DNA of 64,000 nt from Tubiluchus corallicola. Its lineage: Eukaryota; Priapulida; Priapulimorpha; Priapulimorphida; Tubiluchidae. Both the position numbers and the translations under genes were made by a program. The stretch is taken from NCBI GenBank assembly GCA_030141605.1, contig JAQGDQ010000040.1:774501-838500 (forward strand), in the 5' to 3' direction. The notes beneath the pieces are model-generated. The model saw only the letters and a program-made list of their open reading frames with translations, did not search any database and had not been told where the DNA came from. This document shows positions 24,251 to 62,733 of the stretch, piece after piece; within the stretch, counting starts at the first letter, position 1, and the number at the start of each line of letters is the position of its first letter.

Positions 24251-24380
24251 GGGTTTTTCAAACCTCATTTTTTTATTAATATTTTTTCAAAACACTCTCC
24301 ATTTACATTGGTAAGGAGTGGATTTTAATCAATTTTTTTCTCAATACGAACTAAAATCTTTTACCCTGCGAAGGCTTCAT
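24251..24380 (+). repeat. Intergenic repeat family, copy A
   Basis: Upstream of coaD. It shows the family pattern: a left end with CAAACCTCATTTTTTTATTA, a centre with CTCCATTTACATTGGTAAGG, then TTTTTTCTCAATACGAAC and a right end with CCTGCGAAGGCTTCAT. The left end is diverged from the consensus GAGGCCTTTGCAAAA. Confidence 0.75.
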
Positions 24381-24395
24381 ATTATTCAAAACTGC

Positions 24396-24403
24396 TAAAT
24401 TTG
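24396..24403 (+). promoter_or_regulatory. Promoter -7 element for coaD
   Basis: TAAATTTG matches TAnnTTTG and lies about 78 bases before the coaD start. The -33 element is not clear. Confidence 0.45.
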
Positions 24404-24480
24404 CATGGTTTTCGCTGTTTCGTTATTTGAGATTGTTATGCTTAGACGAGCAGTGCTACTTTAAAGTAAGAAACTTAGTG

Positions 24481-24969
24481 ATGGAGAAAATTGCAGTTTT
24501 TCCGGGTTCGTTCGACCCGTTTACCATTGGGCACGAGTCAATAGTATACAGGGCATTACCTCTTTTTGACCAGATTATCATTATGGTTGGATATAACTCT
24601 AATAAGGGCCCTTTTTATCCAGTCGAAAAGAGAAAAAGATGGATCAAACAAGTTTTTGAAGATATACCCGAAATACATGTAGGAAAATATGAGGGGCTGA
24701 CTGTTGATTATTGCAGGAGGGTACATGCAAAATATATACTACGGGGTATCCGTACAGCTGCCGATTTTGAATATGAACGCGCAATTGCGCAGGTAAACAA
24801 AAAAATGCATCCGGACATTGAAACTGTCTTTCTTTTGACAACACCGGAACACACCTCTATAACATCAACTATAGTGAGGGATATATTTCGCCATGGTGGC
24901 GACGCAGGGATGTTTATCCCTGATAAGCTTGACGCTTCTGAATTTTTAGTACACAATGATGAGAAATAA
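24481..24969 (+). CDS. coaD: Phosphopantetheine adenylyltransferase
   Basis: Transfers AMP from ATP to 4'-phosphopantetheine, the penultimate step of coenzyme A synthesis in the cytoplasm. The 162-residue product has the usual family length. It carries GSFDPFTIGH (about 9-18), whose TxGH motif binds ATP, then RGIRTAADFEYE and the C-terminal TSITSTIVRDI. ATG 24481 is chosen because the family begins a few residues before GSFDP; an in-frame ATG at 24427 would add an unconserved 18-residue extension. The last 14 bases overlap the next gene, so the two are probably translationally coupled. Confidence 0.96.
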   Translation: MEKIAVFPGSFDPFTIGHESIVYRALPLFDQIIIMVGYNSNKGPFYPVEKRKRWIKQVFEDIPEIHVGKYEGLTVDYCRRVHAKYILRGIRTAADFEYERAIAQVNKKMHPDIETVFLLTTPEHTSITSTIVRDIFRHGGDAGMFIPDKLDASEFLVHNDEK

Positions 24970-26398
24970 GGTCGTAGCGGTGCTATCTATTTTATTTTGC
25001 ACATTGCATTTCAGCACCTTTTCACAAGCAACAAGGATGAGTGGGACAGATCCCGACTATGCGGGTAGAGAGCTTGTGTTTTACTGTATGACAGAGCCGA
25101 TTTTGGCAAAGAAAACTACAGTAGGGAAGGTCGTACCGGATAAGGAAGGCCACTTTGAGATAGAGTTTAATCAATCGCAAACTTCTGAAATATATGTTGA
25201 TGTAGGAAAATATAAGGGTGTTGTGATAGCTGCACCGGGGGGAAATTACCGCATAAGCCTCCCTCCATATCGGGAAAAATCACTGGCTGAAGCAAACAGT
25301 ATTTACTTTAGGCCCCAGCTATACTGGATGGGAGTGCTAAATGCTCAGAAGGATGATATAAACTACAGTGTCCGAAAGTTTATTGGCCGCTACAATGATG
25401 AGGTAGATAGGTACTTATCAGAGACATTTACGCACATTTCAAAAGACTTTGCCTATAGTGTAATTACGAAGCTTGAAGCAGAGTTTCCCGATACTGAGAA
25501 TCATTTTTATAACAGCTTAAAGCTGTACTATTATGCAGAGCTGGAGTATACGGTAAATGAGCACACTGTAGAGCATGTTATTGATAAGTATTTTGCCGGC
25601 AGGCCTTTAGAGGGGAATAACCCCAAATACTATGACATGTTTCGTATTCTCTTTGTCAACTATCTTTATCAGAACTCACAAGACCCGGAGGGGCGGCAAA
25701 TTATTGGGCTGGTCAACAGGGGAGACTTTGCAGGGCTTGTAAAGTACTTTACAAGCAAAGGGTATTTATTGGAATTTGCAGAAGCGGTTGTCTTAAAAGG
25801 GTTACATGATGGCTTTTATACTAAAAAATTTAATAAAAAAGGTGTACTTGACACCTTGACAGAGGCAAATAAAAAAGCATCATCATCACATAATCGAGAT
25901 CTTGCCTTGCATATTTATAATGATGCCTCTTCTATGATGGAAGGTAGCCCTCCTCCCTCTTTTGTATTACAGAATATTGATGGGAAGGCGGTTTCACTTG
26001 AAAGTTTTAAACAAAAATATCTGTACCTCTGCTTTGTTAGGGTGGAAGATAAGATAAGCATGGAGGAGGTGCGGCTGCTAAAAGATACTAAACGTAGGTA
26101 CGGAGAGGTGCTTGATGTGTTATTTGTTAGCATGGATGATAGCTTTGAAACAGCGAAAAAATACTGGGTAGACCAAAATATAGAGTGTGAACTGCTAGAT
26201 GGAAGTAAGAGACCGGATATTAAAGAAAGCTACCGTGTACATGTTTTCCCAACCGGTTATCTTATATGCCCCGAAGGAACAATTTTATTATCTCCGGCAC
26301 CTTTGGCATCAAGGGGTTTTGATGCTGCATTTGCAAAGGTATTTGAAGTCCGCCGAGTCGAAAAGAAGCGACGGGAAACTAAGACTCAGAATAGATAA
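24956..26398 (+). CDS. Exported thioredoxin-fold (TlpA-like) protein without CxxC
   Basis: A 480-residue product with a signal peptide (hydrophobic 5-22, cleavage likely after TFSQA). It has a beta-rich N-terminal domain like the DUF4369-type region of Bacteroidota TlpA proteins, a long helical middle, and a C-terminal AhpC/TlpA-like domain from about residue 327 (PPPSFVLQNIDGKAVSLESF, then FVSMDDSFETAKKYW). Redox-active relatives read FWATWCGPC where this one has LYLCFVRVEDKISMEE. The CxxC motif is therefore absent and a disulfide-reductase role is unlikely. It overlaps the end of coaD by 14 bases. Role unknown; periplasmic or surface location is inferred. Confidence 0.75.
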   Translation: MMRNKVVAVLSILFCTLHFSTFSQATRMSGTDPDYAGRELVFYCMTEPILAKKTTVGKVVPDKEGHFEIEFNQSQTSEIYVDVGKYKGVVIAAPGGNYRISLPPYREKSLAEANSIYFRPQLYWMGVLNAQKDDINYSVRKFIGRYNDEVDRYLSETFTHISKDFAYSVITKLEAEFPDTENHFYNSLKLYYYAELEYTVNEHTVEHVIDKYFAGRPLEGNNPKYYDMFRILFVNYLYQNSQDPEGRQIIGLVNRGDFAGLVKYFTSKGYLLEFAEAVVLKGLHDGFYTKKFNKKGVLDTLTEANKKASSSHNRDLALHIYNDASSMMEGSPPPSFVLQNIDGKAVSLESFKQKYLYLCFVRVEDKISMEEVRLLKDTKRRYGEVLDVLFVSMDDSFETAKKYWVDQNIECELLDGSKRPDIKESYRVHVFPTGYLICPEGTILLSPAPLASRGFDAAFAKVFEVRRVEKKRRETKTQNR

Positions 26399-26500
26399 TA
26401 AATCTTTTTATAACTTTGAGGAAGTTTTTTGTGCATTACTTATGGTATCACCTTCAGGTTTTTATGAAGGGAGAATTTGTTGTTTTATCCACATACGATT

Positions 26501-27133
26501 ATGAAAAAGTTACAAAAAGAAGTTGCAGAGAAGTTGTTAGCTATCGACACGATAAAAATACAACCGGATTTGCCTTTTACATGGGCTTCCGGCTGGAAGG
26601 CACCAATATATTGTGATAATAGAAAAATATTATCATTTCCTGAAACGCGCAGGTTTATTTGTGAACGGTTTGCAGCACTTTTAGGCGATAAGTATCCTGA
26701 TGCTGAAGTGATTGCGGGGGTGGCAACAGGGGCAATAGCACATGGAGTATTGGTTGCTGAAAAAATGAAGCTCCCATTTATATATGTTCGTTCGAAGCCC
26801 AAAGGACACGGGCTTGAAAATCTTATTGAAGGGAATGTGCAGCCTGGTAAAAAGGTTGTAGTTATTGAAGACCTTATATCTACGGGAGGAAGTTCCCTGA
26901 ATACCGTACATGCTATACGAGACTATGGCTGTGAAGTGTTGGGAATGTTTGCTATTTTTACATATAATTTTCAGCAGGCAGCCGATAACTTTGAAAAAGC
27001 GGGGGTAGAACTTACTACTTTGAGCAATTATAACCTTTTGCTTGAAGTGGCTTGCGAATCAGGAGAAATTATACCTGAGCAGATGGAGAGCTTAAACAAT
27101 TGGAGAAAAGCTCCTGAGAAATGGGGAAAATAG
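26501..27133 (+). CDS. pyrE: Orotate phosphoribosyltransferase
   Basis: Makes orotidine 5'-phosphate from orotate and PRPP in de novo pyrimidine synthesis. The 210-residue product has the type I PRTase fold, with FTWASGWKAPIYCDNRKI near the N-terminus and the PRPP-binding loop VVVIEDLISTGGSS near residue 116-130. ATG 26501 (MKKLQKEVAEKLL) is used; an upstream ATG at 26477 adds eight unconserved residues. Followed after 133 bases by an SRPBCC gene, a neighbourhood common in Bacteroidales. Confidence 0.95.
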   Translation: MKKLQKEVAEKLLAIDTIKIQPDLPFTWASGWKAPIYCDNRKILSFPETRRFICERFAALLGDKYPDAEVIAGVATGAIAHGVLVAEKMKLPFIYVRSKPKGHGLENLIEGNVQPGKKVVVIEDLISTGGSSLNTVHAIRDYGCEVLGMFAIFTYNFQQAADNFEKAGVELTTLSNYNLLLEVACESGEIIPEQMESLNNWRKAPEKWGK

Positions 27134-27266
27134 ATTGTGAGACAAGGTGGAACTTTTGAGTTTTATTAAAGCTTTTAATTATAAAGGTATAGGCGGTAGC
27201 TGGGATTTTGTCATCTTGAATTAGAGCTACGCGGCTTCATCACCATCACTATTTTTAGACTAAACT

Positions 27267-27728
27267 ATGGAAAAGTATACAAGCGAAGTAAAAGTTATTG
27301 AACATTCACAAAAGGCAGTATATAGCTACCTGTCAGACCTTAATAATCTGAAAAGCTTTATCGATCCGGACAAGATGGAAAGCATTAAGCATAAGATTCC
27401 CAATATGCCCGGCTTAAAGATTGAAGACTTTGAGGCGAAAGAGGATGAGTGTAGCTTTAAGCTGGACATGGTTGGGCGTGTAGGCATGAAGATTGTAGAG
27501 AAAGAGCCGCTAAAGACTATTAAGCTTACCGGCAATGAAACCGCGCCGCTTAAATTCTTCATTTGGATACAACTTTTACCTGGAGAGGGAGAGCAGTGCA
27601 AGATGAAGCTAACATTAAAAGCAGATATAAGCATTATGATTAAGGTGATGATTAATAAGCAGTTGAGGGATGGGGTTGAGCATGTCGCCAATATGATTGC
27701 AGCAATTCCTTACAGCGATCAGACCTGA
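27267..27728 (+). CDS. SRPBCC (START-like) domain protein
   Basis: 153 residues with the pattern of small START/polyketide-cyclase-like proteins: an N-terminal strand (SEVKVIEHSQKAVYSYLSDL), a helix with LKSFIDPDKM, alternating strands, and a long C-terminal helix (QLRDGVEHVANMIAAI). No signal peptide. Such proteins have a hydrophobic ligand cavity, but the ligand is unknown here. The link with pyrE is positional only. Confidence 0.8.
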   Translation: MEKYTSEVKVIEHSQKAVYSYLSDLNNLKSFIDPDKMESIKHKIPNMPGLKIEDFEAKEDECSFKLDMVGRVGMKIVEKEPLKTIKLTGNETAPLKFFIWIQLLPGEGEQCKMKLTLKADISIMIKVMINKQLRDGVEHVANMIAAIPYSDQT

Positions 27729-27814
27729 TATACCCACGGCTTGTTTAAGCGTATTGGGATTTTAATACAAAGTGCTAGTAAAAAACTGTAAATGCACCTG
27801 CAATTTATAATAGA

Positions 27815-27954
27815 GAGGCCTTTGCAAATCTTGTCCTTTTATTAATATTGTCCCCAAGTACTCTTCAAAGGTCTCATTTACACTGGCAAACTACAGTTTT
27901 TTATCAAATTCCACCTCCAACCTGAGCTAAACTTTTTTGCTTTGCAAGGGCCTC
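27815..27954 (+). repeat. Intergenic repeat family, copy B
   Basis: Starts GAGGCCTTTGCAAATCTTG and ends TTTGCTTTGCAAGGGCCTC, so its termini are inverted repeats. The centre has GTCTCATTTACACTGGCAA and the right half has CCAACCTGAGCTAAAC. It lies between the SRPBCC gene and the M16 peptidase gene. One of the best-preserved copies. Confidence 0.85.
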
Positions 27955-27979
27955 AGAGACTTAGAGCTTGAATTTTTGA

Positions 27980-27987
27980 TACTTTTG
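27980..27987 (+). promoter_or_regulatory. Promoter -7 element for the M16 peptidase
   Basis: TACTTTTG, a perfect TAnnTTTG match, 23 bases before the start codon and just after repeat copy B. Confidence 0.6.
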
Positions 27988-28009
27988 CAGCTTGACAGAT
28001 CATTTATAG

Positions 28010-29230
28010 ATGGAATATATTACCCATACTTTTCATAATGGAATCAGGCTGATTCATCAACATACAAGCTCTCCTGTGGCTCATTATGGCATTATATTTA
28101 ATACGGGTTCGCGTGATGAAGAAACAGATGAGCAGGGAATGGCACATTTTGTAGAACATACAATCTTTAAAGGTACCCGTAAGCGAAAATATTTTCACAT
28201 ATTGAGCAGGCTGGAAAATGTTGGAGGTGAGTTAAATGCGTATACAACGAAAGAGGAGATTGCAATTTACGCCTCTTTCTTATCTCAGTACTATGAGCGG
28301 ACTGTGGAGCTTTTAAGTGATGTAATAGCCAACTGTTCTTTCCCAGAGCACGAGCTGGAAAAGGAAAAAGAGGTTGTTATAGAGGAGATAAACGCATTCA
28401 AAGACAACATTTCCGAGTTAATATTCGATGATTTTGAAGAGATGGTGTATAATGGGCACCCTATGGGCAGAAATATATTGGGTACACCTGAAAATATACG
28501 CAAATTTAATCGAAGCAGAGTAAAGAGGTTTGTAAAGAATAACTTTTCTGCCGGACAGATGATTATATGCTCGGTGGGCAGTATCTCAGGGAAAAAAATA
28601 ATTGAGCTTTCCGGGAAGTATTTCTCAGAATTTGAGCTGTCCGACAGGAAACAGAAGCGCAAAAAATTCAGCAGCTATACTCCACGTACCAAAAAGGTAC
28701 AGAAAGGCACCTGCCAGTCTCACTGTATTATTGGTAATGAGGCCTATCATAGCCAACATCCTCTGAGAATGGGGACAGTGTTGTTAAACAACATACTGGG
28801 TGGGCAATCGATGAACTCACGCTTGAACTTATCGTTGCGTGAAAGGAATGGAATAGCTTATAATGTGGAATCCGGCTATACTGCCTATACTGACACCGGA
28901 ATATTGACTATATATTTTGGGACGGACAAAAAAAACTATCAAAAGGCAATTGGGCTTATAATCAAAGAGATAAAGAAATTGCAGAACCAATGCCTTGGAC
29001 GACTTCAGCTGGGAAGGGCTAAAAAACAGCTTGTCGGACAAATTGCAATGTCTCAGGAGAACAGGGAGGACCTTATGTTAATGCTTGGTAAAAGCTATCT
29101 GCTTTATGATAAAGTTGACAGCTTGGAGGCAGTTTACAAGAAGATTGAAAATATCTCTGCTTTGCAGATTATGGATATCGCAAATGAGGTTTTAGATATC
29201 AAAAAGCTCTCCTACCTTGTTGTGGTATAG
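28010..29230 (+). CDS. M16 family zinc metallopeptidase
   Basis: 406 residues, the size of single-domain-pair M16 peptidases (processing-peptidase/PqqL type). The inverted zinc motif HxxEH is present as HFVEH (46-50). The third metal ligand is expected in EVVIEEINAFKD (about 121-132), at the family's normal spacing of about 76 residues. The C-terminal half has the usual R/Y motif region (LRERNGIAYNVESGYTAYTD). No signal peptide, so the protein appears cytoplasmic. Substrate unknown. It has its own TACTTTTG promoter 23 bases upstream of the ATG. Confidence 0.92.
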   Translation: MEYITHTFHNGIRLIHQHTSSPVAHYGIIFNTGSRDEETDEQGMAHFVEHTIFKGTRKRKYFHILSRLENVGGELNAYTTKEEIAIYASFLSQYYERTVELLSDVIANCSFPEHELEKEKEVVIEEINAFKDNISELIFDDFEEMVYNGHPMGRNILGTPENIRKFNRSRVKRFVKNNFSAGQMIICSVGSISGKKIIELSGKYFSEFELSDRKQKRKKFSSYTPRTKKVQKGTCQSHCIIGNEAYHSQHPLRMGTVLLNNILGGQSMNSRLNLSLRERNGIAYNVESGYTAYTDTGILTIYFGTDKKNYQKAIGLIIKEIKKLQNQCLGRLQLGRAKKQLVGQIAMSQENREDLMLMLGKSYLLYDKVDSLEAVYKKIENISALQIMDIANEVLDIKKLSYLVVV

Positions 29231-29761
29231 AGCTAATTAAACACAAAGTTTAAAGACTGGCTGGGTTGAATATAAGACATTTCGGGTGCATATTTGCTAC
29301 CTTTGGCCAATAAGAAAGACTGAGAGCTTTGGAGAGTGCATGGAGAAAATATTTAATAAAAGAACAAGGTTTGCAAATGGCTCCTGCCTTGAAATTTTCA
29401 TCTCAATTAAATAGTCAATTAGGGAGTGAAGAGACAAGTCGTAATCTGCAAGGTTTTGCACGGAAGTTACAATAATCCTTGCAATTTAGGAGACTGTAAT
29501 TCGTTAGGTTTTAGCTTTATATTGATGGTGTTAGTCAAGTTGGACTTAATTTAAGGAGTGGCTGAATAGAATCTGTATAGGAAAGAGTGGCTTATCTTAT
29601 TTTGTGTATACACACCGAGCTTTAGTGATTCTATTGTGAAAGCTTCAATTCTTTTGCTAGTGTCTGATTTTAGACTTGTAAAAAAATCTTCACTTCAAGT
29701 AGGTTGAATTTTTTCTGATGTGTGGAAATGCTATTTTTGTTTTTTTAATAAAAATTGTACA
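29231..29761. other. Intergenic spacer of about 530 bp, no gene
   Basis: No open frame with a family signature and no copy of the intergenic repeat. It contains CAAGGTTTTGCACGG and CAATCCTTGCAATT-like short repeats, but nothing I can assign. Decayed gene sequence is possible. Confidence 0.5.
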
Positions 29762-30682
29762 ATGTCCATAAGAGTAGAGGGTATAACAAAGAGGTATGGA
29801 GGTCAAAAGGCGCTAGACAATGTCTCTTTTTCTATATCTTCCGATGAGATAGTTGGGTTTTTAGGCCCCAATGGTGCGGGAAAGTCGACAATGATGAAGA
29901 TCATAACAGGATCCCTACCAGCTACAGCAGGTAGTGTGTATATTGATGACGTGGAGGTTACTTGTGATACGGTCTCTGTTCGGCAAAACATAGGTTACCT
30001 ACCGGAACACAATCCACTGTATCATGATATGTATGTATGCGAGTACCTCTTACATGTTGCCGGAATATATAAAATGGCTCAAAAAAAGCAGCATGTAAAG
30101 GAAATGCTTGAAATGACAGGCCTTATTTCAGAGCAGCATAAGAAAATAGGTAATCTGTCAAAAGGATATAAGCAGAGGGTAGGGGTAGCACAAGCGCTTA
30201 TTCACAATCCGGGCATTGTTATTTTGGATGAACCTACAAGTGGCCTTGATCCTAAGCAATTGATTGAAATAAGGCAGTTGATAAAGCAAATAAGCTCTAA
30301 AAAGACGGTGCTTTTTTCTACACATATTATGCAGGAGGTTGAGGCTCTTTGTGATAGGGTGATTATTGTGGATAAAGGAAAAATAGTAGCAGATAAGACA
30401 TCAGAGCAAATGAAGTATGTTTATTCTGGTTTAGCTCAGGCAGTTTTTGTTGAATTTGCATCGCCTGTAGATAAAAAGCTACTACTGTCAATACCCGGCG
30501 TAGAAAAGGCTGATAAGATGGGAGGGACCCAATGGATACTACTAGGTAATGAAGAGGAAGATATGCGCCCCAATATTTTTAAATTTGCTGTTGAGAAGGA
30601 CAAGATACTACTTACTCTCCGCAGAGAGGAGGCCAGTATGGAAAATGTTTTTATCAATGCCACATCTATGGGCAGAGGTTGA
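29762..30682 (+). CDS. gldA: GldA-type ABC transporter ATP-binding protein
   Basis: 306-residue ABC ATPase. Walker A is GPNGAGKS, the signature region is LSKGYKQRVGVAQALIHNP, and Walker B is IVILDEPTSGLDP with the D-loop following. The stretch NIGYLPEHNPLYHDMYVCEY is characteristic of the Bacteroidota GldA family. In gliding species GldA works with GldF and GldG; neither is adjacent here, and homologs occur in non-gliding bacteria too, so motility should not be inferred. ATG 29762 begins MSIRVEGITKRYG, the family start; an upstream in-frame start is not conserved. The C-terminal tail of about 90 residues is normal for this subfamily. Confidence 0.85.
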   Translation: MSIRVEGITKRYGGQKALDNVSFSISSDEIVGFLGPNGAGKSTMMKIITGSLPATAGSVYIDDVEVTCDTVSVRQNIGYLPEHNPLYHDMYVCEYLLHVAGIYKMAQKKQHVKEMLEMTGLISEQHKKIGNLSKGYKQRVGVAQALIHNPGIVILDEPTSGLDPKQLIEIRQLIKQISSKKTVLFSTHIMQEVEALCDRVIIVDKGKIVADKTSEQMKYVYSGLAQAVFVEFASPVDKKLLLSIPGVEKADKMGGTQWILLGNEEEDMRPNIFKFAVEKDKILLTLRREEASMENVFINATSMGRG

Positions 30683-32008: not shown

Positions 32009-32028
32009 AGCAAATCCAAGCATAGTAG

Positions 32029-32154
32029 TGAAGCTTTACAAAACCCCACCATTATTTTATTAAAATTTTCTTTAAAATCCTTACTTACATCAGTAAGCTA
32101 CGGCTTTTTCTTACAAGTATGAGCAGGACTCTTTTGCTTTGCAAAGGAACTCTT
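32029..32154 (+). repeat. Intergenic repeat family, copy C
   Basis: Begins GAAGCTTTACAAAACCCC. The centre TTACTTACATCAGTAAGCTA is close to the family core CTCATTTATGTCAGTAAGC. Ends TTTTGCTTTGCAAAGGAAC. Lies between the DUF2147 and DUF5063 genes. Confidence 0.75.
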
Positions 32155-34799: not shown

Positions 34800-35061
34800 C
34801 ATATTGATATATGTGAGGCTTTGTAAGGTAGAATATTTTAGGTTTAGATCGAAAAAATCGATGATAGACCGCAGGTTACTTAGTTTAAGAGAGGATTTTA
34901 ACGTTAATATTATGAGTTTTACAAATGGATCATATGCGAGCGTTCCTGGAAAAGTCCATTAGTATTGTTATTTTAGCACTGTGTATAAGCCTTTGAGTTT
35001 CTGCTGTTACTGTATCGTTAAATGCGTGCTACAGAATTTAAATATATAAAATTGAAATATT

Positions 35062-36529: not shown

Positions 36530-36660
36530 CTGTATGTGTTTACTTGCTAGCTACTTTAGCAGCATAGCTTTTCATTATAGAGCGTGTTTGTTATAGACAT
36601 AAGCGCAATACAGGTTTTTAGCTGAATCCGAACATTTTTTTATTTCAGCTTCTGTTTTGA

Positions 36661-38016
36661 CAATAGTTCGTTAAATAATCATGCAGCGATAGTGCCGTAA
36701 GTTATTAATTCTCTGATTTTGGATTTATTTTTGGTTAAGTTTGGTCTCACCGCGAACACGCTAAAAAATCTATTTAGCAGTAATTCATTGTGATACATTG
36801 TTTTTATATCGGCCATAGAAAAAGCATTTCTATTGATTTTTGGTATAGCTAACCAGTGGTTAATCTTGGCCAAATTGACTGCAGTAAGAGACGCATTAAA
36901 ATGAAAATGTAATTTATTTTCACTTCTTGCCTGACAGTCTTTCAATCCGGTATATTGTTTTGCATCTCTGTAAATGAACTCAATCTGGAATCTGGCTTGA
37001 TAATATTCAAGAATCGTCTCGGCTTTCATTTGCAAATCAGTAGAGAAGTATAACTTGTGAGACCACTTTCGGGATGTTCCTTTTGTAAAAACAACAACAA
37101 GATTAACATCTCGTTTTAATGATTTTGCATAAACTGTTGCTCCGTATATTTTGCATTTTTCGTTTTGCTCAAAGCATTCAAAATATTTTGATTTTAAATT
37201 ATCAAAGTCAATCTTTCCTTCATATTTTCTAGGTCTTCCTCTACCAGCTTTTTGCTGACCATAAAATTTGTATTGTAAGTTAGCATCATCTCTCAGGCGA
37301 CTAATCACTTCAAATCCATTTTCGCAAAGCTTGGTTACAAACTTATTCTTTGAAAAATAGGCATCTGCCAAAACGTATTTTGATACACATAACAGATTGT
37401 CCTTGCGTTGAATCAAAACATTTGCGTAATGATCAACCAGACTTTCTGCTTCAAGATTATTAGGGGTTTGAATAGCTTCTAAATGAAAAGCTGTATGATT
37501 ATCAATATCAACGGCTGCTATTCCTGCAATCTCTAAGCCCCATTTTGTTTTGCCGGCACATCCTGACCAAAAGTAACCAGCCCCAGATGTATGCTTTCCT
37601 GACTTGCTTATATAGCTTGGATCAAAGGCTATGGCTTGATGGTTGCTTGCGTAATGGATTACCGACTCTTTGTTAAAAGTCATAAAATCAAACCCTTTTT
37701 CAAATTGATATCTATAACGTTGCTCACAGTGATTTCCATATCTGCCAAATTGAAGAAAGTTCATCTTTCCTTTGATACTAAGAAATAGTCCGAAGATGTC
37801 TAGCATAAAATCGAATTGCCACTTATTTATTCCTTCCATTTGGTTTAAAATCATTTTTACCTGATCTTTATATCTTGATATTTCCTTGATAATCATGTCT
37901 AAAATTGTCGGTCAAAAACAACTTTAAGATACTGATTATCAGGGGATTATCCTAATTTTTTCAACATTTATTTTATTGATTGTCAGATATTTATGTAAAT
38001 GTTTAACGAACTATTG
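36661..38016 (-). mobile_element. IS4-family insertion sequence, complete copy
   Basis: A 1356 bp element with matching ends. CAATAGTTCGTTAAA at the left is repeated in reverse complement at the right, a 15 bp terminal inverted repeat. It is flanked by direct TTTTGA repeats at 36655-36660 and 38017-38022, a probable 6 bp target duplication. It carries one transposase gene on the minus strand. The right edge touches intergenic repeat copy D. A second copy in opposite orientation starts at 63219. Confidence 0.92.
36679..37896 (-). CDS. IS4-family transposase (DDE)
   Basis: 405 residues, intact. DDE residues are visible: Asp92 in AFDPSYISKSG, Asp168 in YVLADAYFSKN, and Glu296 within YYQARFQIEFIYRDAKQYTG. 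The last fits the YREK signature of the IS4 family (Tyr289, Arg292, Glu296, Lys303). A basic GRGRPRKYEGK segment lies at 208-218. It catalyses cut-and-paste movement of the element. The first 220 residues match the second copy at the window end. Confidence 0.93.
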   Translation of the reverse strand: MIIKEISRYKDQVKMILNQMEGINKWQFDFMLDIFGLFLSIKGKMNFLQFGRYGNHCEQRYRYQFEKGFDFMTFNKESVIHYASNHQAIAFDPSYISKSGKHTSGAGYFWSGCAGKTKWGLEIAGIAAVDIDNHTAFHLEAIQTPNNLEAESLVDHYANVLIQRKDNLLCVSKYVLADAYFSKNKFVTKLCENGFEVISRLRDDANLQYKFYGQQKAGRGRPRKYEGKIDFDNLKSKYFECFEQNEKCKIYGATVYAKSLKRDVNLVVVFTKGTSRKWSHKLYFSTDLQMKAETILEYYQARFQIEFIYRDAKQYTGLKDCQARSENKLHFHFNASLTAVNLAKINHWLAIPKINRNAFSMADIKTMYHNELLLNRFFSVFAVRPNLTKNKSKIRELITYGTIAA

Positions 38017-38020
38017 TTTT

Positions 38021-38164
38021 GAAGTATTTGCAGTATTCATCTTTATTAATATCTTCGTCAGGAATTTTCTTCATAATTTTTATTTTTTTAACAATTTAAT
38101 TGTAGTTTTTATTAAATCTTTTCTCAATTTGGGTCAAAATATTTTGCTTTGTAAGTGCCTTGCG
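38021..38164 (+). repeat. Intergenic repeat family, copy D, abutting the IS
   Basis: Reads GAAGTATTTGCAGTATTCAT, then TTATTAATATCTTCGTCA, TTTTCTCAATTTGGGTCAAA and TTTTGCTTTGTAAGTGCCTT. Its first two bases lie inside the TTTTGA target duplication of the IS, so the IS inserted at the left edge of this copy. It precedes the pullulanase gene. Confidence 0.7.
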
Positions 38165-41462: not shown

Positions 41463-41469
41463 GTTAGCT

Positions 41470-43514: not shown

Positions 43515-43624
43515 GACTGTGTATTATTTTTATTAACTTATGATACGTTTTAACGATCTTCATGTGAGGTAGCATTGCTCCAGAAACTGCGAGTATTTAA
43601 GCTTAGGCCAGAGACATTGCTTTA

Positions 43625-43765
43625 AAGCCTTTTCAAAACTCATTTTTTATTAGCTACCCTTGTCAAGATCTTCTTCAGTATCCTCATTTAAATTTTTTCT
43701 ATGTGTTTATACTCTTTTTTGAGTTCAAACTTGGGCTTTCTAAACCTGAGCCTGATTGGCAAGGC
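43625..43765 (+). repeat. Intergenic repeat family, copy E
   Basis: Begins AAGCCTTTTCAAAACTCATT. The centre has TCCTCATTTAAATTTT and the right end has ACCTGAGCCTGATTGGCAAG. More diverged than its neighbour F. The orientation is the same as all other copies although flanking genes are on the minus strand. Confidence 0.65.
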
Positions 43766-43783: not shown

Positions 43784-43924
43784 TGAGACCTTTGCAAAAC
43801 TTATCTTTCTTACTAGTATTTTTGTCAAAAATCTTTTTCAAAACCCTTATTCCTCTCGATAAACAGCGGTTTTTATCATTTTTTTTCAATTTGAACTAAA
43901 GCTGTTCACCTTGTAAAGGCCTCA
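43784..43924 (+). repeat. Intergenic repeat family, copy F
   Basis: Begins GAGACCTTTGCAAAACTTAT and ends CACCTTGTAAAGGCCTC, so the termini pair. The middle has TATTTTTGTCAAAAATC and TTTTTTCAATTTGAACTAAA. Only about 18 bases separate it from copy E. Confidence 0.8.
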
Positions 43925-45102: not shown

Positions 45103-45230
45103 TGAAACCTTTATAGGACTCATTTTTTTATTAATGTTTTTTTCAAAACCTTCATTTATGTCAGTAAGCTTCGATTTATTATTGAATTTTTTCTCAACCT
45201 GAGCCAAAATCTTAGCCCTGCGAGGGTCTC
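45103..45230 (+). repeat. Intergenic repeat family, copy G
   Basis: Left end GAAACCTTTATAGGACTCAT. The centre is TTCATTTATGTCAGTAAGCT, almost exactly the family core, then TTTTTTCTCAACCTGAGCC and CCTGCGAGGGTCTC. Lies upstream of prfB and downstream of recX, both on the minus strand. Confidence 0.85.
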
Positions 45231-54039: not shown

Positions 54040-54166
54040 GAGATTTTTGCAAATCTCATCTTTTTATTAATATTTTCGTCAAAATCCTCATTTATGTCAG
54101 TAAGCGGCATTTTTTATCGAGTTTTTCCTCAACCTGAACCGGAATCCTTCGACCTGTAAAAGTCTT
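54040..54166 (+). repeat. Intergenic repeat family, copy H
   Basis: Left end GAGATTTTTGCAAATCTCAT, then TTTTTATTAATATTTTCGTC, the core CTCATTTATGTCAGTAAGC intact, TTCCTCAACCTGAACCGG and the right end GACCTGTAAAAGTCTT. The copy with the most exact core. Confidence 0.85.
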
Positions 54167-54448: not shown

Positions 54449-54521
54449 ACGGGTGTAGCTCAGTTGGTAGAGCACTGGTCTCCAAAACCAGGTGTCGGGC
54501 GTTCGAGTCGCTCCTCCCGTG
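54449..54521 (+). tRNA. tRNA-Trp (anticodon CCA)
   Basis: A cloverleaf is visible. The anticodon stem CTGGT/ACCAG has loop CTCCAAA, anticodon CCA. The T arm is GGGCG-TTCGAGT-CGCTC and the discriminator is G. The acceptor stem ACGGGTG/CTCCCGT has one T-T mismatch at the sixth pair. No encoded CCA (CAA follows). It stands alone between uvrB and htpG, not beside tuf and secE where many Bacteroidota have it. Confidence 0.93.
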
Positions 54522-56748: not shown

Positions 56749-56775
56749 GTAAGCTATATATTGTAGACTGCATAT

Positions 56776-56805
56776 TAGAGGGAAGTGTGCTACCACTTCC
56801 CTCTA
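56776..56805 (+). terminator. Hairpin terminator of htpG
   Basis: TAGAGGGAAGTG and CACTTCCCTCTA form a perfect 12 bp stem with a six-base loop, 28 bases after the htpG stop. The T run is weak (TCATAATTTGG). Confidence 0.65.
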
Positions 56806-56840
56806 TCATAATTTGGAGACTTTTGTAAAACAGGTTCTTT

Positions 56841-56965
56841 GAAGCCTTTGCAAAACTTATCTTTTTATTGACACTTTAGTCAAAATATTTATCCACGCCG
56901 GTAGGGTGCAATTCTTTTCATTGAATTTTTCTTTAACCTCAAAATGTTTTGACTTGCAAGGCCTC
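56841..56965 (+). repeat. Intergenic repeat family, copy I
   Basis: Begins GAAGCCTTTGCAAAACTTAT and ends TTTTGACTTGCAAGGCCTC, so the termini are inverted. The middle reads TTATCCACGCCGGTAGGGTG, more diverged than copies G and H. Confidence 0.8.
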
Positions 56966-57216
56966 TTGAAAAATATTTGCAAAACAAAGGGGCAGTTTAT
57001 TTTGAGAAATGACCAGGATGTATTTTATTTGGTGCATTGATTACTTTATTTATTGATTATAGACTATTGCTTTTAAGGCTGCATCAGATATTTGGGTGTG
57101 TCTGTATTCTTAATGTTTGACTTGCTGAAGCCCTATTACCTGACATCTACTAGTAGGTTTATGCCTTTCTTATTCTGTCTTTTTTATATTATCAGTATAT
57201 TGTTCAACAGAAGAAA

Positions 57217-57987
57217 ATGAATGTAATCACATATAATATAAAGTATGATACTTATAGCAATGAAGCTGATGCATGGTCAAATCGGAAGGATGATGTAGTA
57301 ACTCTTTTAAAATTTCACGGTGCTGATGTTTTTTGTGTTCAGGAGGCGCTTTATGATCAGGTAAAAGATATAAAAAGAGAGATGAGACAGTTTGATTATG
57401 TTGGAGTAGGTCGGGATGATGGAGGAAAAAAGGGAGAGTATTCAGCGGTGTTTTATAATGCCAAGCAAATAGGGTTATTGGATAGTGGAAGCTTTTGGCT
57501 CTCTGAAACTCCTGAAAAGCCAGGGCTGGGTTGGGATGCAGCATATCCAAGAATCTGCACATGGGGAAGGCTTAAAGATATAGAGTCAGGGCAGGAGTTT
57601 TTTGTTTTTAACACTCACTTCGACCATAAGGGTAGTGTAGCGCGTCTGAAATCGGCAAAGCTTATCTGTGAAAAAGTACAGGAAATAGGAGAGGGTAATT
57701 TGCCTGCGATATTGACAGGTGACTTTAATCTCACACCTGAAGAAGAGGCAATTGCTTTTATTTGTTATGAGTGGAATGACTCTTTTAAAGTAAGTGAAGA
57801 GTTGCCGTATGGGCCTGAAGGGACGTTTAATGGATTTACTACTGCTCACCCTCTTGACAAACGTATTGATTATATATTTGTTAATAGCATGGTGAGAGTA
57901 CTGCGATATGCTGTGCTTACAGACTCCAAACAGGGGAGGTACCCGTCTGACCACCTTCCTGTCTTTACAGAGCTAACATTCAAATAA
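57217..57987 (+). CDS. Endonuclease/exonuclease/phosphatase family protein
   Basis: 256 residues with the Mg-dependent DNase I-like fold: MNVITYNIKYDT at the start, FCVQEALYDQV (metal Glu43), NTHFDHKGSVARLKSAKLI, LTGDFNLTPEEEA and the C-terminal YPSDHLPVFTEL with the catalytic His. No signal peptide from this start, although many Bacteroidota relatives are exported. It could cleave nucleic acid, phosphoinositides or other phosphodiesters. Only 12 bases separate it from the next gene. Confidence 0.88.
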   Translation: MNVITYNIKYDTYSNEADAWSNRKDDVVTLLKFHGADVFCVQEALYDQVKDIKREMRQFDYVGVGRDDGGKKGEYSAVFYNAKQIGLLDSGSFWLSETPEKPGLGWDAAYPRICTWGRLKDIESGQEFFVFNTHFDHKGSVARLKSAKLICEKVQEIGEGNLPAILTGDFNLTPEEEAIAFICYEWNDSFKVSEELPYGPEGTFNGFTTAHPLDKRIDYIFVNSMVRVLRYAVLTDSKQGRYPSDHLPVFTELTFK

Positions 57988-57999
57988 CAGGATGCTACT

Positions 58000-58767
58000 A
58001 TGATTTTCAAAAAATGTATTTTACTAACAGTTGCACTTTTTATTTGTGTAGCTGCGAATGCACAAAGCGACTTGTCATCATTTACTAGTGATTATGAGGG
58101 GTATACCTATACTGCCTCTAATAAAAAGCAGTTGAGCTATCGTATCCTCTTTCCTGAGGATTATGATTTGGCGCAAAAATATCCACTTGTTCTTTTTCTA
58201 CACGGCTCTGGCGAGAGGGGGAGTGACAATGAGCAGCAGTTGACCCATGGGGCAGATATGTTTCTGTTGCCTGAAGTACGGAAAGAGTTTCCTGCAATTG
58301 TGGTCTTCCCCCAGTGCCCGAAAGAGAAGAAATGGGCAGCCCCGTCGCTATCGAAAAAGCCAGGTGAAATACCAAGGCTGGTAATGGGAATGCTAAAAAA
58401 AATAGTGCGTGAAGAGAGTGTGGATAAAAACCGTATATATGTAATGGGGCTTTCAATGGGAGGATTTGGAACATTTGAAATGCTTTATTACTGGCCAAGA
58501 TACTTCTCCGCAGCAGTCCCTATATGTGGAGGTCATGACCCTGAAGGGGCTTCAAAGTACGCTAAGTATGTACCAGTATGGATATTTCATGGTTCTGAAG
58601 ACTCTGTTGTACCGGTAAAAAGATCACAGGATATGTATGCAAGATTGAAAGGCTTGAATGCGAAAGTGAAGTATACTGAGTTCCCGGAAGTTGGACATAG
58701 TAGCTGGGTAAATACATTTGCATTGCCCGAGCTGTTGCCATGGGTATTTTCTCAGGCAAAGAAGTAG
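58000..58767 (+). CDS. Exported alpha/beta-hydrolase (esterase / prolyl-oligopeptidase-like)
   Basis: 255 residues with signal peptide (hydrophobic 7-19, cleavage after ANAQ). The catalytic triad is readable: Ser152 in GLSMGGFG, Asp201 in HGSEDSVVP and His233 in EVGHSSW. The oxyanion region is LFLHGSGERGSDNEQQ. This type includes CE1-like esterases and phospholipase/carboxylesterases from polysaccharide degraders. Probably periplasmic. It follows the phosphatase-family gene by 12 bases, so one transcript is likely. Confidence 0.87.
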   Translation: MIFKKCILLTVALFICVAANAQSDLSSFTSDYEGYTYTASNKKQLSYRILFPEDYDLAQKYPLVLFLHGSGERGSDNEQQLTHGADMFLLPEVRKEFPAIVVFPQCPKEKKWAAPSLSKKPGEIPRLVMGMLKKIVREESVDKNRIYVMGLSMGGFGTFEMLYYWPRYFSAAVPICGGHDPEGASKYAKYVPVWIFHGSEDSVVPVKRSQDMYARLKGLNAKVKYTEFPEVGHSSWVNTFALPELLPWVFSQAKK

Positions 58768-58792
58768 ATAATTAAAATAATGATTTACAGAT

Positions 58793-59179
58793 ATGGAGAT
58801 TGGTATTGACGAAAAAGATATTAAAAGGATTGTTTTGGTAAGTGATAAAGTTTTGGTAAAACCTAAAAACCCTCAACAACGAACCAAGTCAGGGCTATAT
58901 TTGCCGCCAGCTGCTGTTGACAAAGAGAAAGTGCTGACGGGCTATGTTATTAAAGCCGGCCCGGGGTTTCCAATTCCGGCTATGACTGCTGAAGAAGAAG
59001 AGAAGTGGAAAGGGCATAAAAAAGAGGTAAAGTATGTCCCTCTTCAGGCATCTCCTGGAGATCTGGCCGTGTACCTTAATAATTCAGGCTATGAAATTGA
59101 ATTCAATAAGAAAAAGTATGTGATATTATCTCACTCATCAATATTGATGCTGGTAAGGGATGAGGGGTTATTTGAGTAG
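58793..59179 (+). CDS. GroES-like co-chaperonin family protein
   Basis: 128 residues. It carries the chaperonin-10 pattern: VLVSDKVLVKPKNPQQRTKS, GLYLPPAAVDKEKVLTGYVI, KAGPG, PGDLAVYLNNSGYEIEFNKK and VILSHSSILMLV. It is longer than canonical GroES (about 95) because of an insert, PIPAMTAEEEEKWKGHKKEV, between the mobile-loop half and the C-terminal half. No groEL is adjacent. It is probably a Bacteroidota GroES paralog rather than the main co-chaperonin. Confidence 0.8.
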   Translation: MEIGIDEKDIKRIVLVSDKVLVKPKNPQQRTKSGLYLPPAAVDKEKVLTGYVIKAGPGFPIPAMTAEEEEKWKGHKKEVKYVPLQASPGDLAVYLNNSGYEIEFNKKKYVILSHSSILMLVRDEGLFE

Positions 59180-59195
59180 TACTGTTAAAATAAAA

Positions 59196-59235
59196 AACAA
59201 GAAGGAAGCACTTATCGCGGTACCTCCTACTTGTT
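59196..59235 (+). terminator. Hairpin after the GroES-like gene
   Basis: AACAAGAAGGA and TCCTACTTGTT pair with one mismatch, starting 17 bases after the stop codon. Followed by CTTAAATCTT rather than a clean T run, so it may be a terminator or a leader hairpin. Confidence 0.5.
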
Positions 59236-60010
59236 CTTAAATCTTAACTTTACGTATGAAAAAATTGTTGTATGACAATTGTTTGCAAAGATGTAACATA
59301 TTTAGGTTAACTAGAGTTAAATTATGTTAAAAGAAACTAATACAACAATTTGACATAAGCTTAATCGTTGCAAGGTAAAAGATTCTGATCCAAGCTAAGT
59401 AGTCATCCCTTAAATTAAGCTTAACTCATTTAATGTTAATTATATAAGGTTAGGAGTTTAGCAGGTTGTAGTGACCTAATTTGCAATAATTACTGTAATT
59501 TATATTTGTAAGAGTTGCTGTAACTTCTGTGCAAAATCTTGCAGGTTGTGGTGGAAAAATCGCCAAGTCAAAGCCGGATGAACCTTGCAAACTATGCGAA
59601 ATAGAAAAAACTGCCCTTTAAGGGCTTTGATAGAAAAACAGCGAAGGATGGAGCGAAAAACCTTCTCACTGTTTGCGCCTTTTAACAAAAGGTGAGTCTC
59701 GAGAAGATAGCGAAGCTGTCAGTGTCGTTTTTCATCAAAAGCATTTACAGGCTTGATTTTTGGTTCTTTTGTTTTGCCTATTTTGTGTTAGAAACAAGAG
59801 TACACTACTTCAAAAACAACTGTATAATCGTCAACAGAAACTGTACACTTTTTTTAAGCCGCCTCCAGAGGGATTTATTGTGTCCCGGATCAAAATATAA
59901 CAAATAGTAGATTTTGATCTCAACAAAAATTAATTCTTAAGGAACTTAAGTAAAGGCTTAGTAAAGCCTCAGTAAAACCTCAGTTACCATGGTAAAGGAA
60001 GAGGGATAAA

Positions 60011-60049
60011 AAAAACAGAGTATTGCTGACAGCAGATACTCTGTTTTTT
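60011..60049 (-). terminator. Bidirectional terminator after superoxide reductase
   Basis: AAAAACAGAGTAT and ATACTCTGTTTTT form a perfect stem with A and T runs on both sides, so it works for either strand. It ends the peroxiredoxin-superoxide reductase operon 28 bases after the stop. Confidence 0.85.
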
Positions 60050-60076
60050 TATTCTTAGTAGACAGGCGTTGCTATA

Positions 60077-60454
60077 CTACTTCACCTCTACATCTTTTTT
60101 ATCGCTTTGCCACAGACCATGTTTTGTGCAAAATGCAGTAGCAGTAAGCTTTAAGTTCTTAGTGGGAACGATATAAAACTCTACCTCTGTCTGTCCAGGT
60201 TCATTGCCAAGAGCCCCTGCCGTAAAATGTGCATGAGCAAGCATCTTTTCTCCGTCCCATAGCTGCACCCAGCTAATGTAATGGTCAAAGTCATCAGGGT
60301 GTGCGTATTGATCACCAATTTTAACTTTAACCTTAAATTTATTGCCTTTGGTTGCTTTATTTTCACAATGAATAAAAGCGGAGTGGCGATCTATGTAATC
60401 TTTTTTTGCCTCCCTGTCTATTTGGGAAATATCTTCATAACGATTTAACTTCAT
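60077..60454 (-). CDS. Superoxide reductase (single Fe centre, neelaredoxin type)
   Basis: 125 residues. Reduces superoxide to hydrogen peroxide without making oxygen, an enzyme of anaerobes and microaerophiles. The five ligands of the active-site iron are readable: His24, His52, His58, Cys109 and His112 (RHSAF, AHPDDFDHYISWVQLW, FCTKHGLW). The N-terminal desulforedoxin-like rubredoxin centre of desulfoferrodoxin is absent, so it is the single-centre class. It starts 27 bases after the peroxiredoxin stop, forming an operon in which the peroxide it makes can be removed by the upstream product. Confidence 0.93.
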   Translation of the reverse strand: MKLNRYEDISQIDREAKKDYIDRHSAFIHCENKATKGNKFKVKVKIGDQYAHPDDFDHYISWVQLWDGEKMLAHAHFTAGALGNEPGQTEVEFYIVPTKNLKLTATAFCTKHGLWQSDKKDVEVK

Positions 60455-60481
60455 ACAATTAAGCTTTTTTATTATTAAAAA

Positions 60482-61114
60482 TTAATTGGATGCAAGATAT
60501 TCTGCAACACTCTGGGCTGTAGGCTTCATGGCCTCTTTACCTTCTTGCCAGTCAGCAGGGCATACCTCGCCATACCTTTCGGAGTGACGTAGTGCATCCA
60601 CCGTGCGAATAGCCTCGTCTACACTTCTTCCCAGCGGAAGGTCGTTGATTACGCAGTGGCGTATGATTCCCTCTTTATCAATAAGAAAAAGGCCTCTGTA
60701 AGAAACAGGTACACCATTAAAAACAGTATTACCATCGTCATCAAGATCGTATTCTCCTGCTAATACACCATAATTTTCTGAAATAGTTTTTGAAAGGTCA
60801 GCTACCAAAGGATAAGTAACTCCTTTTATACCTCCGTTGTTTTTGTCTGTGTTCAACCAGGCCAGGTGTGCAAACTCTGAGTCGACTGAGCATCCTACAA
60901 CTGCTGTGTTGCGTTTATCAAATTCTGCTAACTTTCTTTGAAAAGCATGTAGTTCTGTAGGACAAACAAAAGTGAAGTCAAGTGGGTAGAAGAAAAATGC
61001 AACATATTTTTTTCCTAAATACTGGGTTAATGAAAAGTCATTAACAATTTTGTTCCCGTCTACCACCGCATTGGCTTTGAATTCAGGAGCCCTCTTTCCA
61101 ATTAATGTAGTCAT
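60482..61114 (-). CDS. Typical 2-Cys peroxiredoxin (AhpC/Prx1)
   Basis: 210 residues. Reduces hydrogen peroxide and organic peroxides. The peroxidatic Cys51 is in FTFVCPTELHAFQ and the resolving Cys185 in EVCPADWQEG. The C-terminal YLASN tail with a YF-like segment suggests the oxidation-sensitive subtype. It is the first gene of an operon with superoxide reductase. A TTTG...TACTTTTG promoter overlapped by a PerR box lies just upstream, and a PerR gene is divergent. Confidence 0.96.
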   Translation of the reverse strand: MTTLIGKRAPEFKANAVVDGNKIVNDFSLTQYLGKKYVAFFFYPLDFTFVCPTELHAFQRKLAEFDKRNTAVVGCSVDSEFAHLAWLNTDKNNGGIKGVTYPLVADLSKTISENYGVLAGEYDLDDDGNTVFNGVPVSYRGLFLIDKEGIIRHCVINDLPLGRSVDEAIRTVDALRHSERYGEVCPADWQEGKEAMKPTAQSVAEYLASN

Positions 61115-61149
61115 AAGTAAATATGTATTATCAGATTAATGAATAAAAA

Positions 61150-61164
61150 TTATAATTATTACAA
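61150..61164 (-). promoter_or_regulatory. PerR box upstream of peroxiredoxin
   Basis: The plus strand reads TTATAATTATTACAA, matching the published PerR consensus TTATAATnATTATAA at all but one base. It overlaps the downstream end of the TACTTTTG -7 element and covers the predicted transcription start, 36 bases before the start codon. Binding here should block transcription. Confidence 0.7.
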
Positions 61165-61191
61165 AAGTACTCTTTTTTATTTAATCTCAAA
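61162..61191 (-). promoter_or_regulatory. Peroxiredoxin-superoxide reductase operon promoter
   Basis: On the minus strand TTTG (61188-61191), 18 bases, then TACTTTTG (61162-61169), matching the Bacteroidota primary-sigma promoter. Confidence 0.7.
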
Positions 61192-61483
61192 TACAATTGG
61201 TGATTTTTTTTGGTTGAGCTAATTTGTAGTATTTGAGATAGATAGGAGCTTGAAAATATAGATTGCCGATTGTTGTGTGGAGAGAGTAAAAAGAGTGTTG
61301 TCGTCATAATAGTTTGATAATAAGCTATATATTTAAAATATTCTTTGTTGTAAAAAAATATGATAATTTATACAATTTTATGTTTTTGGTGCTCTTTGTC
61401 AACATGGTAGTTTCTAAGCGGACTACTGCTAGTAATAGTAAGAAAAAGTAGAGCAGCCGACTTTCTTTTTACTATACTTTTTT

Positions 61484-61612
61484 AGGCTCTTTGCAGAACT
61501 CATCTTTTTTTATAATTAAGCTTTTGGTAAAACACTCACTTATACCGGTAAATGCAGTTTTTTATCGACGTTTTTAGTCTGAACTAGGATCTTTCGTTTA
61601 GCAGAGGCCTCT
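61484..61612 (+). repeat. Intergenic repeat family, copy J
   Basis: Left end AGGCTCTTTGCAGAACTCAT, middle CTCACTTATACCGGTAAATG, then TTTTTTATCGACG and the right end TTTAGCAGAGGCCTCT. Same orientation as the others. Confidence 0.75.
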
Positions 61613-61807
61613 GCTTTATTCTGACTAGTGATTGGGATAACATTTTATAGCTTGTAAAGCGTTCTGAAAATTTCAGATTATATTACTAAAGATTTATTTT
61701 TGCTTATCTATATGAATATAAAACAACTAACTTTAGCGCAATTTTGTGTTAAAACAGGTTATTTTATATTTTTAGTGCCTGAATAAAGAGTAAAGAAGTG
61801 GTGTAAA

Positions 61808-62260
61808 ATGAAAAAACATAAGATAGCTGATTATTTATGCAGCAAGGGGATACGTCCACTGGACAAGAGGGTTAGGGTAATGCACTATTTGGTTTCGAAA
61901 AGAAATCACCCTACCGTAGATATGATCTATACTAATCTGGCTCAGGATATACCAGGACTATCGAAAGCTACGGTTTATAATATATTAAAGCTGTTTGCAG
62001 AAAAGAATATTGTGTGGACATTAAGTATTGATAGTAATGAAGCAAGGTATGATGCTGATACGTCAATACATGGGCATTTTAAATGTAATGTGTGTAATAA
62101 TATTTTTGATTTTTGTATAGAAGAAAACTCTTTGCCTACTACAGGGTTGAAAGGTTTTTATATAAATGAATCTCATTACTATTTAAAAGGGGTGTGTACT
62201 TTCTGTAAAGATAATTTATCTTCTTTGGGAGTGGCCTCTAAGAGCAGTGTAACTACTTGA
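61808..62260 (+). CDS. perR: Peroxide-responsive repressor PerR (Fur family)
   Basis: 150 residues. Winged-helix DNA-binding domain (about 1-80, with AQDIPGLSKATVYNILKLF as recognition region) and a dimerisation domain with the structural zinc site Cys93/Cys96 and Cys130/Cys133. The regulatory metal ligands of Bacillus PerR (His37, Asp85, His91, His93, Asp104) all have counterparts here at a constant offset of three: His34, Asp82, His88, His90 and Asp101. Asp, not Glu, at the last site marks PerR rather than Fur. It is divergent from the peroxiredoxin-superoxide reductase operon, which has a PerR box. Confidence 0.9.
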   Translation: MKKHKIADYLCSKGIRPLDKRVRVMHYLVSKRNHPTVDMIYTNLAQDIPGLSKATVYNILKLFAEKNIVWTLSIDSNEARYDADTSIHGHFKCNVCNNIFDFCIEENSLPTTGLKGFYINESHYYLKGVCTFCKDNLSSLGVASKSSVTT

Positions 62261-62733
62261 TCGGAGTGCCTGAAAAAATCAAATATATTTTCTCGTAATC
62301 CCTTGCTTTGTAAAATAAAGTAAGTTATGCGAAGAGTTCTTTGCATAACTCATCTTTTAATTGCTTCTCGTTTTAATTGCTTCTCGGTTTGCACTTTATG
62401 ATAAAAGCATTAAAGGTTCTATTAGTTCTAATACTTGTATGATCAAGCTTTCAAGTATATTCTCAGCAACTCTCAATTAAAGGAAGAATAATAAATAAGA
62501 AGCATTCATATAGTCTTAGTCTTTGGCAATTAATCAATGGGGTTCAGCTTTGTGCTTCGAGTATTTTTTGAATAAAATATGCTTAATTAATATAAAAATA
62601 GTTATATTTCGGAGAACCATACTGACATGACTATTAAACTTCGAATGTTAATTCATACGAGTACTATAATAGATAAAGTCATTTGTATAAGGTTTTAAGT
62701 ATAACCGACAAACTAATAAACAGGATTAAAGAA
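62261..62733. other. Intergenic region after perR
   Basis: Contains partial repeat copy K with a 16 bp tandem duplication. The remaining sequence is AT-rich with no recognised gene. Confidence 0.5.
62331..62390 (+). repeat. Partial intergenic repeat copy K with 16 bp tandem duplication
   Basis: GAAGAGTTCTTTGCATAACT followed by CATCTTTT matches the left end of the family. The sequence then switches to two tandem copies of TTTTAATTGCTTCTCG (62355-62370 and 62371-62386). The right half is missing. Confidence 0.6.

Follow-up and report, generated by a model that had tools for sequence, protein, structure and literature searches.

The stretch of DNA considered here, referred to as the window, comprises 64,000 nucleotides (positions 774501-838500) of C1820, a 975-kb contig of a Tubiluchus corallicola assembly (G000, 343.5 Mb), and straddles a junction between eukaryotic and bacterial DNA. 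Its bacterial part carries ten copies (A to J) of a short intergenic repeat, all reading the same way. The repeats are a real and new family, of a known kind, of miniature inverted-repeat transposable elements (MITEs), approx. 139 bp long, in a bacterium of the Bacteroidota. Their polarity is a genome-wide replication-strand bias of about 71-78%, depending on the measure used; it is a tendency and not a rule.

The repeats in the window and their surroundings

The sequence-only reading of the window had proposed a family of full-length repeats in a single orientation. An nhmmer model built from copies A-J recovers all ten on the plus strand at the places first reported (E 2e-31 to 4.7e-15), which, as the model was made from these same copies, attests to mutual similarity only; the reversed, uncomplemented window gives no match. 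Independent support comes from copy H, which, used alone as a query, finds at least 41 places in the assembly, itself included (the best 40 of 77 candidates being scored). Nine of the ten copies are full length; the genome-wide model described below recognises copy E in its left half only (43626-43692, 21.5 bits). The shared orientation likewise holds for the ten good copies but not beyond them, as minus copies occur both inside the window (Table 1) and at C1820:845, 867, and 869 kb. The termini pair, with 13 consensus end pairs among the ten copies, and A to K, the last a fragment, all sit between called open reading frames (ORFs), as had been read for the full copies. The first 24 kb do lack copies, which is trivial because it largely reflects the boundary between two organisms and not a chromosome domain.

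Positions from about 1 to 20.3 kb are eukaryotic, AT-rich, and poor in long ORFs, and two ORFs there have matches to the Scramblase family, one passing the cut-off (1.4e-6) and one falling below it (0.0026). By eye, two ORFs on this side resemble reverse transcriptases of long interspersed nuclear elements, without a Pfam family match. The remainder of the window is Bacteroidota DNA, whose genes start at 20389 (GH92, a cytidylyltransferase-like protein, peptidase M16, uvrB, and others); the UvrB protein shares 78% identity with that of Prolixibacter denitrificans. Bacterial DNA extends to at least C1820:898500, with ribosomal-protein genes lying there, by eye, on the plus strand. The junction is gap-free, with no N anywhere in the window, and may represent a chimeric contig or, less likely, a bacterial insertion of more than 100 kb. 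No bacterial 16S gene was found in the assembly among the best 5 of 1,499 candidates scored (best match 157 bits). An Rfam scan of the window at the gathering threshold yields two tRNAs only, and a tRNA gene lies at 54449, downstream of copy H. At L083:3809-4783, an ORF resembling ribosomal protein L17 by eye continues in frame into a long tandem repeat of type EEKATKAEETAATA.

Table 1. Features of the window, with positions counted from its first nucleotide
Feature	Position	Strand	Basis
Eukaryotic (left) / bacterial (right) junction, approximate	20300..20400	none	scramblase matches to the left, GH92 gene from 20389, sequence read
MITE copy A	24250..24377	+	nhmmer 91 bits; genome-wide model 74 bits
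MITE copy B	27815..27953	+	nhmmer 104 bits; genome-wide model 94 bits
Left-end fragment, opposite orientation	29320..29383	-	genome-wide model 22 bits
MITE copy C	32028..32153	+	nhmmer 68 bits; genome-wide model 54 bits
Degraded minus copy, not listed in the sequence-only reading	34819..34926	-	genome-wide model 37 bits
MITE copy D	38021..38160	+	nhmmer 58 bits; genome-wide model 46 bits; IS701/IS4-like insertion sequence adjoins left end
MITE copy E, degraded	43623..43765	+	51 bits when part of the model
MITE copy F	43785..43923	+	nhmmer 90 bits; genome-wide model 81 bits
MITE copy G	45104..45230	+	nhmmer 96 bits; genome-wide model 81 bits
MITE copy H	54040..54166	+	nhmmer 103 bits; genome-wide model 100 bits (top window copy with this model)
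MITE copy I	56841..56965	+	nhmmer 84 bits; genome-wide model 69 bits
MITE copy J	61484..61613	+	nhmmer 81 bits; genome-wide model 58 bits
Fragment K, left end only	62331..62363	+	sequence, right limit by eye; pattern match at C1820:836839-836863

Extent, anatomy, and relatives of the family

Many further contigs of the assembly carry the same repeats. A genome-wide nhmmer model was refined by iteration across the window, the six pieces next to it, and 40 others chosen around earlier matches; its consensus has 138 columns (139 bp with the terminal C), and it detects 77 long copies at E <= 1e-6. A 25-base end motif, allowing up to three mismatches, has 79 matches in the assembly (duplicate contigs included) and its reversed pattern none, which argues against low-complexity similarity, a doubt that the sequence-only reading had itself raised. 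The assembly contains mirrored and duplicated bacterial contigs: C1 is mirrored, and C31/C1798/C2237, C1700/C1721, and C1597/C1800 share identical spacing and scores. Four lists of places were merged, and seven contigs taken as duplicates because their spacing and scores matched (16 listed copies) were removed together with the mirrored half of C1. The genome scan that the sequence-only reading had proposed thus gives at least 142 non-redundant copies on 20 contigs, 66 on the plus and 76 on the minus strand, with an orientation bias that is genome-wide; the count is a lower bound because only top candidates are scored in the genome searches. L136, taken as a duplicate of L115, was left out throughout, and L097 was left out of the gene-context, gap, covariation/score, and two-ended counts.

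The copies are diverged: over 68 of them, identity averages 77% against the consensus and 66% between copies. Their terminal inverted repeats (TIRs), GAGACCTTTGCAAAA, pair over 14-16 bp in the consensus and are near-perfect in relatives. An eroded 5-bp target duplication is detectable in the flanks of 46 two-ended copies (112 of 230 positions match, against 81.9 +- 6.5 when permuted; 0 of 20,000 permutations reach the observed count), and the insertion target is symmetric, approx. AYRWWNYRT. Moreover, only three of 79 copies touch an ORF, in each case at its predicted start, and the other 76 overlap none. Copies appear scarcer in convergent gaps (3 in 5,567 bp) than in divergent gaps (25 in 12,332 bp). 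The minus-strand consensus is open across 39 codons; there is no synonymous excess in any of the six frames and hence no coding signature. TIRs, target duplication, and short, non-coding, dispersed intergenic copies are the hallmarks of a MITE, and the MITE-like reading made from the sequence is thereby upheld; a parental element was not found in the relatives or in the part of G000 searched. That reading had also taken the polarity to argue against hopping; the copies carry target-site duplications and therefore did hop. They are old mobile remnants that decay without visible constraint and with no sign of upkeep.

Intact relatives occur in three other genomes (G105, G564, and G565), where they measure 139-142 bp and have almost perfect ends and perfect 5-bp duplications (TTATT, TATAT, ATTTT, AATAA), the perfect duplications surrounding L137, L140, L146, and L148. 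The family is present in all four genomes of the small Bacteroidota family to which G105 belongs. With stricter filters and the best 19 candidates scored per genome listed, 158 of 159 genomes of its class lack a match, G105 alone being positive; of 149 genomes of the order, two contain the end motif. Among 22 Bacteroidota genomes picked by UvrB similarity, six matched at E <= 0.01 (best 21 bits), which was taken as chance. A TIR search across the phylum matched 4 of 395 genomes, and three of these matches lie inside ORFs and look like chance. The fourth (L144:1501, in G455) is a single perfect end, GAGACCTTTGCAAAAC, that lies in a gap between genes and has no partner end within its 3 kb. Neither L146 nor L152 has a match in plasmids, nor L146 in phages, and two exact 21-base ends have none in viral contigs. 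L152 and L148, and likewise L146 and L147/L153, appear to occupy the same insertion site in sister genomes, with nearly identical arms and a differing small palindromic core (CCGTACGG, TTAACAAAGGTTAA, or TTTACGTCAGTAAA). Such core swaps may reflect conversion between copies, repair at the hairpin tip, or mixing during assembly of metagenome-assembled genomes.

The ends of the MITE point to the IS5 family of insertion sequences (IS). In particular, its TIR is identical to that listed for ISNme1 (GAGACCTTTGCAAAA) in Table 2 of PMC4596501, where ISPg1, also of the IS5 family, has GAGACCATTGCA; the left TIRs of ISPg1 and ISPg9 are one base off over 12, and the end string also occurs in PMC5070880. 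IS5-type mobilisation is the natural inference from these ends. In contrast to the three IS elements, the MITE is 139 bp long and has no transposase gene. Its target duplication measures 5 bp. Thus, the earlier statement that no such family is described holds for the body, as far as searched, but not for the ends, which are already known from IS5-family elements.

Candidates for an autonomous partner were tried and rejected. All 12 matches to the end motif in G000 are MITE copies or their duplicates, and ten DDE_Tnp_1 loci from four of five relatives show no end pair matching the MITE. Immediately beside copy D lies an IS701/IS4-like insertion sequence (36660-38017), whose ends, ACAATAGTTCGTTAAA, are perfect over 16 bp; its transposase (36679-37896), below the NCBIfam cut-offs, is not the partner, since its ends differ from those of the MITE.

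No described family matching the body was found in the literature, as far as searched. ERIC elements are imperfect palindromes of approx. 127 bp situated between genes and are alike in size and form. BrickBuilt of Porphyromonas gingivalis is likewise a strictly intergenic Bacteroidota MITE with GAGACCTTTGCA-type ends, but, as described in PMC4596501, it consists of 23-nt tandem repeats, spans 84-991 nt, has 19 copies in ATCC 33277, and makes duplications of varying length; membership was rejected because the interior is different. MITECca01 of a Cardinium symbiont is also a very abundant MITE (169 copies) of a host-associated Bacteroidota, but it measures approx. 240 bp and has IS982-derived ends (PMC9769881, the text of which does not use the word orientation). 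Rickettsia palindromic elements are similar palindromes of approx. 150 bp, and the MITE consensus has one open minus-strand frame; however, those elements are described as sitting in frame inside genes (PMC10969869), from which the copies here keep clear.

Orientation of copies relative to the replication strand

Despite the palindrome, orientation is unambiguous, as the copy's own strand scores at least 45 bits above the opposite one in 68 copies. Neighbouring copies agree in 81 of 122 cases, against 60.9 expected (1 of 5,000 permutations), and 96 of 145 pairs 100-400 kb apart are alike. Because the strand of the genes distorts raw local GC skew, coding-corrected and intergenic skews were used. 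By the former, 58 of 82 copies follow the skew (contig sign-flip, 77 of 5,000 over 14 contigs). By the latter, with the copies masked and 10 copies on contigs without fetched sequence left out, the majority orientation follows on 12 of 13 contigs and in 103 of 132 copies. Third-position skew agrees on seven of the eight contigs for which it could be computed. The plus strand of the copies is itself rich in C (31 C against 15 G in the consensus), so the copies would weaken, not create, the association. The sequence-only reading had suggested a replication-strand role, and the association is supported statistically as a bias, not as a strict rule. In principle, uneven sampling or chimeric and duplicated contigs could mimic such a polarity, given the mirrored and duplicate contigs and the bacterial-eukaryotic junction of this assembly. 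However, these duplicates were removed before counting, the bias persists without C1820 (72 of 108 neighbours agree; 2 of 5,000 permutations), and it follows an independent skew measure; an artefact is thus the least credible explanation of all.

Gene direction does not explain the polarity either, because in a joint fit (n=64) the leading strand carries a likelihood ratio (LR) of 31.0 and the genes an LR of 8.5 with the opposite sign. In this fit, as in the score, folding, two-ended, and hairpin comparisons below, C723, C1720, and other contigs without clear corrected skew received no leading-strand label. Pneumococcal BOX, RUP, and SPRITE repeats are likewise small, intergenic, and MITE-like, with a leading-strand bias (PMC3049150); however, theirs is given there as 61-63%, mirrors the coding bias, and goes with a preference for convergent genes, whereas the bias here is larger (78% by intergenic skew) and opposed to gene direction. 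No title or abstract on MITE orientation in Bacteroidota was found among the open-access papers listed.

The sequence-only reading had also offered a transcribed element of fixed polarity. A minus-strand transcript forming a structured RNA or an mRNA hairpin, as in ERIC or Correia elements, would agree with the greater frequency of the minus strand as sense between co-directional genes (28 vs 14), with the folding of minus-strand RNA in two intact relatives far beyond shuffles (z -5.6 and -6.8), and with two-sided changes, at least one each, in 6 of the 13 end pairs of the ten window copies. Nevertheless, the proposed covariation check, run on 68 copies, shows nothing beyond shuffles (paired cells 0.767 vs 0.765 +- 0.004; end pairs 0.792 vs 0.796), the folding of copy H barely exceeds that of shuffles (z -1.2 and -0.8), and the copies are not co-oriented with genes. 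End-to-end folding is expected of any palindromic element and by itself demonstrates no RNA role. This explanation is very unlikely. Equally improbable is a polar host function (chromosome architecture, segregation, or a replication signal) that keeps orientation by selection: the persistence of the bias over 100-400 kb would fit it, but the copies decay without visible constraint, 29 of 132 oppose the intergenic skew, and 158 of 159 genomes of the class gave no match under the stricter filters.

Probable insertion at the fork and possible removal of hairpins

The polarity is probably best explained by an IS5-type MITE whose orientation at insertion is set by the replication fork. According to this model, an unseen element would provide an IS5-family transposase in trans, which would recognise the GAGACCTTTGCAAAA ends and insert the MITE into AT-rich, loosely palindromic targets, with duplication of 5 bp. 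Insertion would be coupled to the fork, so that most copies point with it; later mutation has eroded them, and inversions might scramble part of the polarity. Precedents for fork coupling are Tn7, IS200/IS605, and several IS families that act via the beta clamp (PMC5371812, PMC4549789), and replication-linked orientation is among the reports on bacterial IS elements in the review PMC5371812. By precedent, fork-coupled insertion is the best-supported class of mechanism. It also fits the trend of bias with score, a rough proxy for copy age only: 31:3 at 70 bits and above, 20:6 at 45-70, and 10:6 at 20-45 (Mann-Whitney P 0.02, n=76).

Alternatively, insertion may be random, and copies whose stronger hairpin strand falls on the lagging-strand template may subsequently be deleted or counter-selected, so that polarity records the survival of palindromes. 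In four intact relatives the minus strand folds along its whole length and is more stable than the plus strand by both RNA and DNA parameters. If the G-rich strand leads, copies in the majority orientation present their plus strand, with its weaker hairpin, as the lagging-strand template. In addition, minority copies have weaker DNA hairpins (8 of 59 copies; by 4.6 kcal/mol on the plus and 3.5 kcal/mol on the minus strand, adjusted for score and length; 0 and 4 of 5,000 permutations, respectively) and are less often two-ended (7 of 15 vs 48 of 61; Fisher P 0.022), and the hairpin difference persists among two-ended copies alone (6 vs 46; P 0.0005 and 0.002). On this reading, wrong-way copies would survive only with a weak or truncated hairpin. 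However, this comparison was made after seeing the data and includes only eight minority copies; by RNA parameters, their minus strand is not weaker (-23.7 vs -22.1), and the DNA strand difference is small in decayed copies (means -9.1 and -10.3). Moreover, hairpin removal predicts that older copies are more biased, but lower-scoring ones look less so. Hairpin removal as the source of the polarity is therefore considered rather unlikely, though clearly less so than an RNA or host function. Fork-coupled insertion and hairpin removal could also both act.

Several observations weigh against a replication-strand bias set at insertion. Besides the copies that oppose the intergenic skew and the two degraded minus copies inside the window, C1720 disagrees by intergenic skew (+3 -2) and C723 by third-position skew (+2 -7), and C31 is almost balanced (3:4). 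The trend of bias with score is weak: among 59 long copies, majority and minority scores do not differ (77.5 vs 63.7, P 0.41). The strand itself is inferred from the skew of sampled 3-7 kb pieces and one stretch of approx. 104 kb, not from a complete chromosome with its origin or terminus. The weaker hairpins of minority copies are not predicted by a bias that arises at insertion. Finally, no autonomous IS with the ends of the MITE was found in the part of G000 searched or in the relatives, and no transposase was located in which a beta-clamp motif could be examined.

For annotation, the repeats should be read as mobile remnants of 140 bp that give no indication of an RNA under maintenance, and the orientation of copies could help to orient bacterial contigs. 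As the MITE carries no gene, selection for transcribing a transposase cannot account for its polarity. A family this dense, with a strand bias counter to gene direction, offers a clean test case for distinguishing fork-coupled insertion from hairpin removal. It is conceivable, if doubtful, that its more than 100 copies of one full-length palindrome form a natural record of replication stripping hairpins from the lagging-strand template. The bias suggests an influence of replication on the insertion or the survival of such elements.

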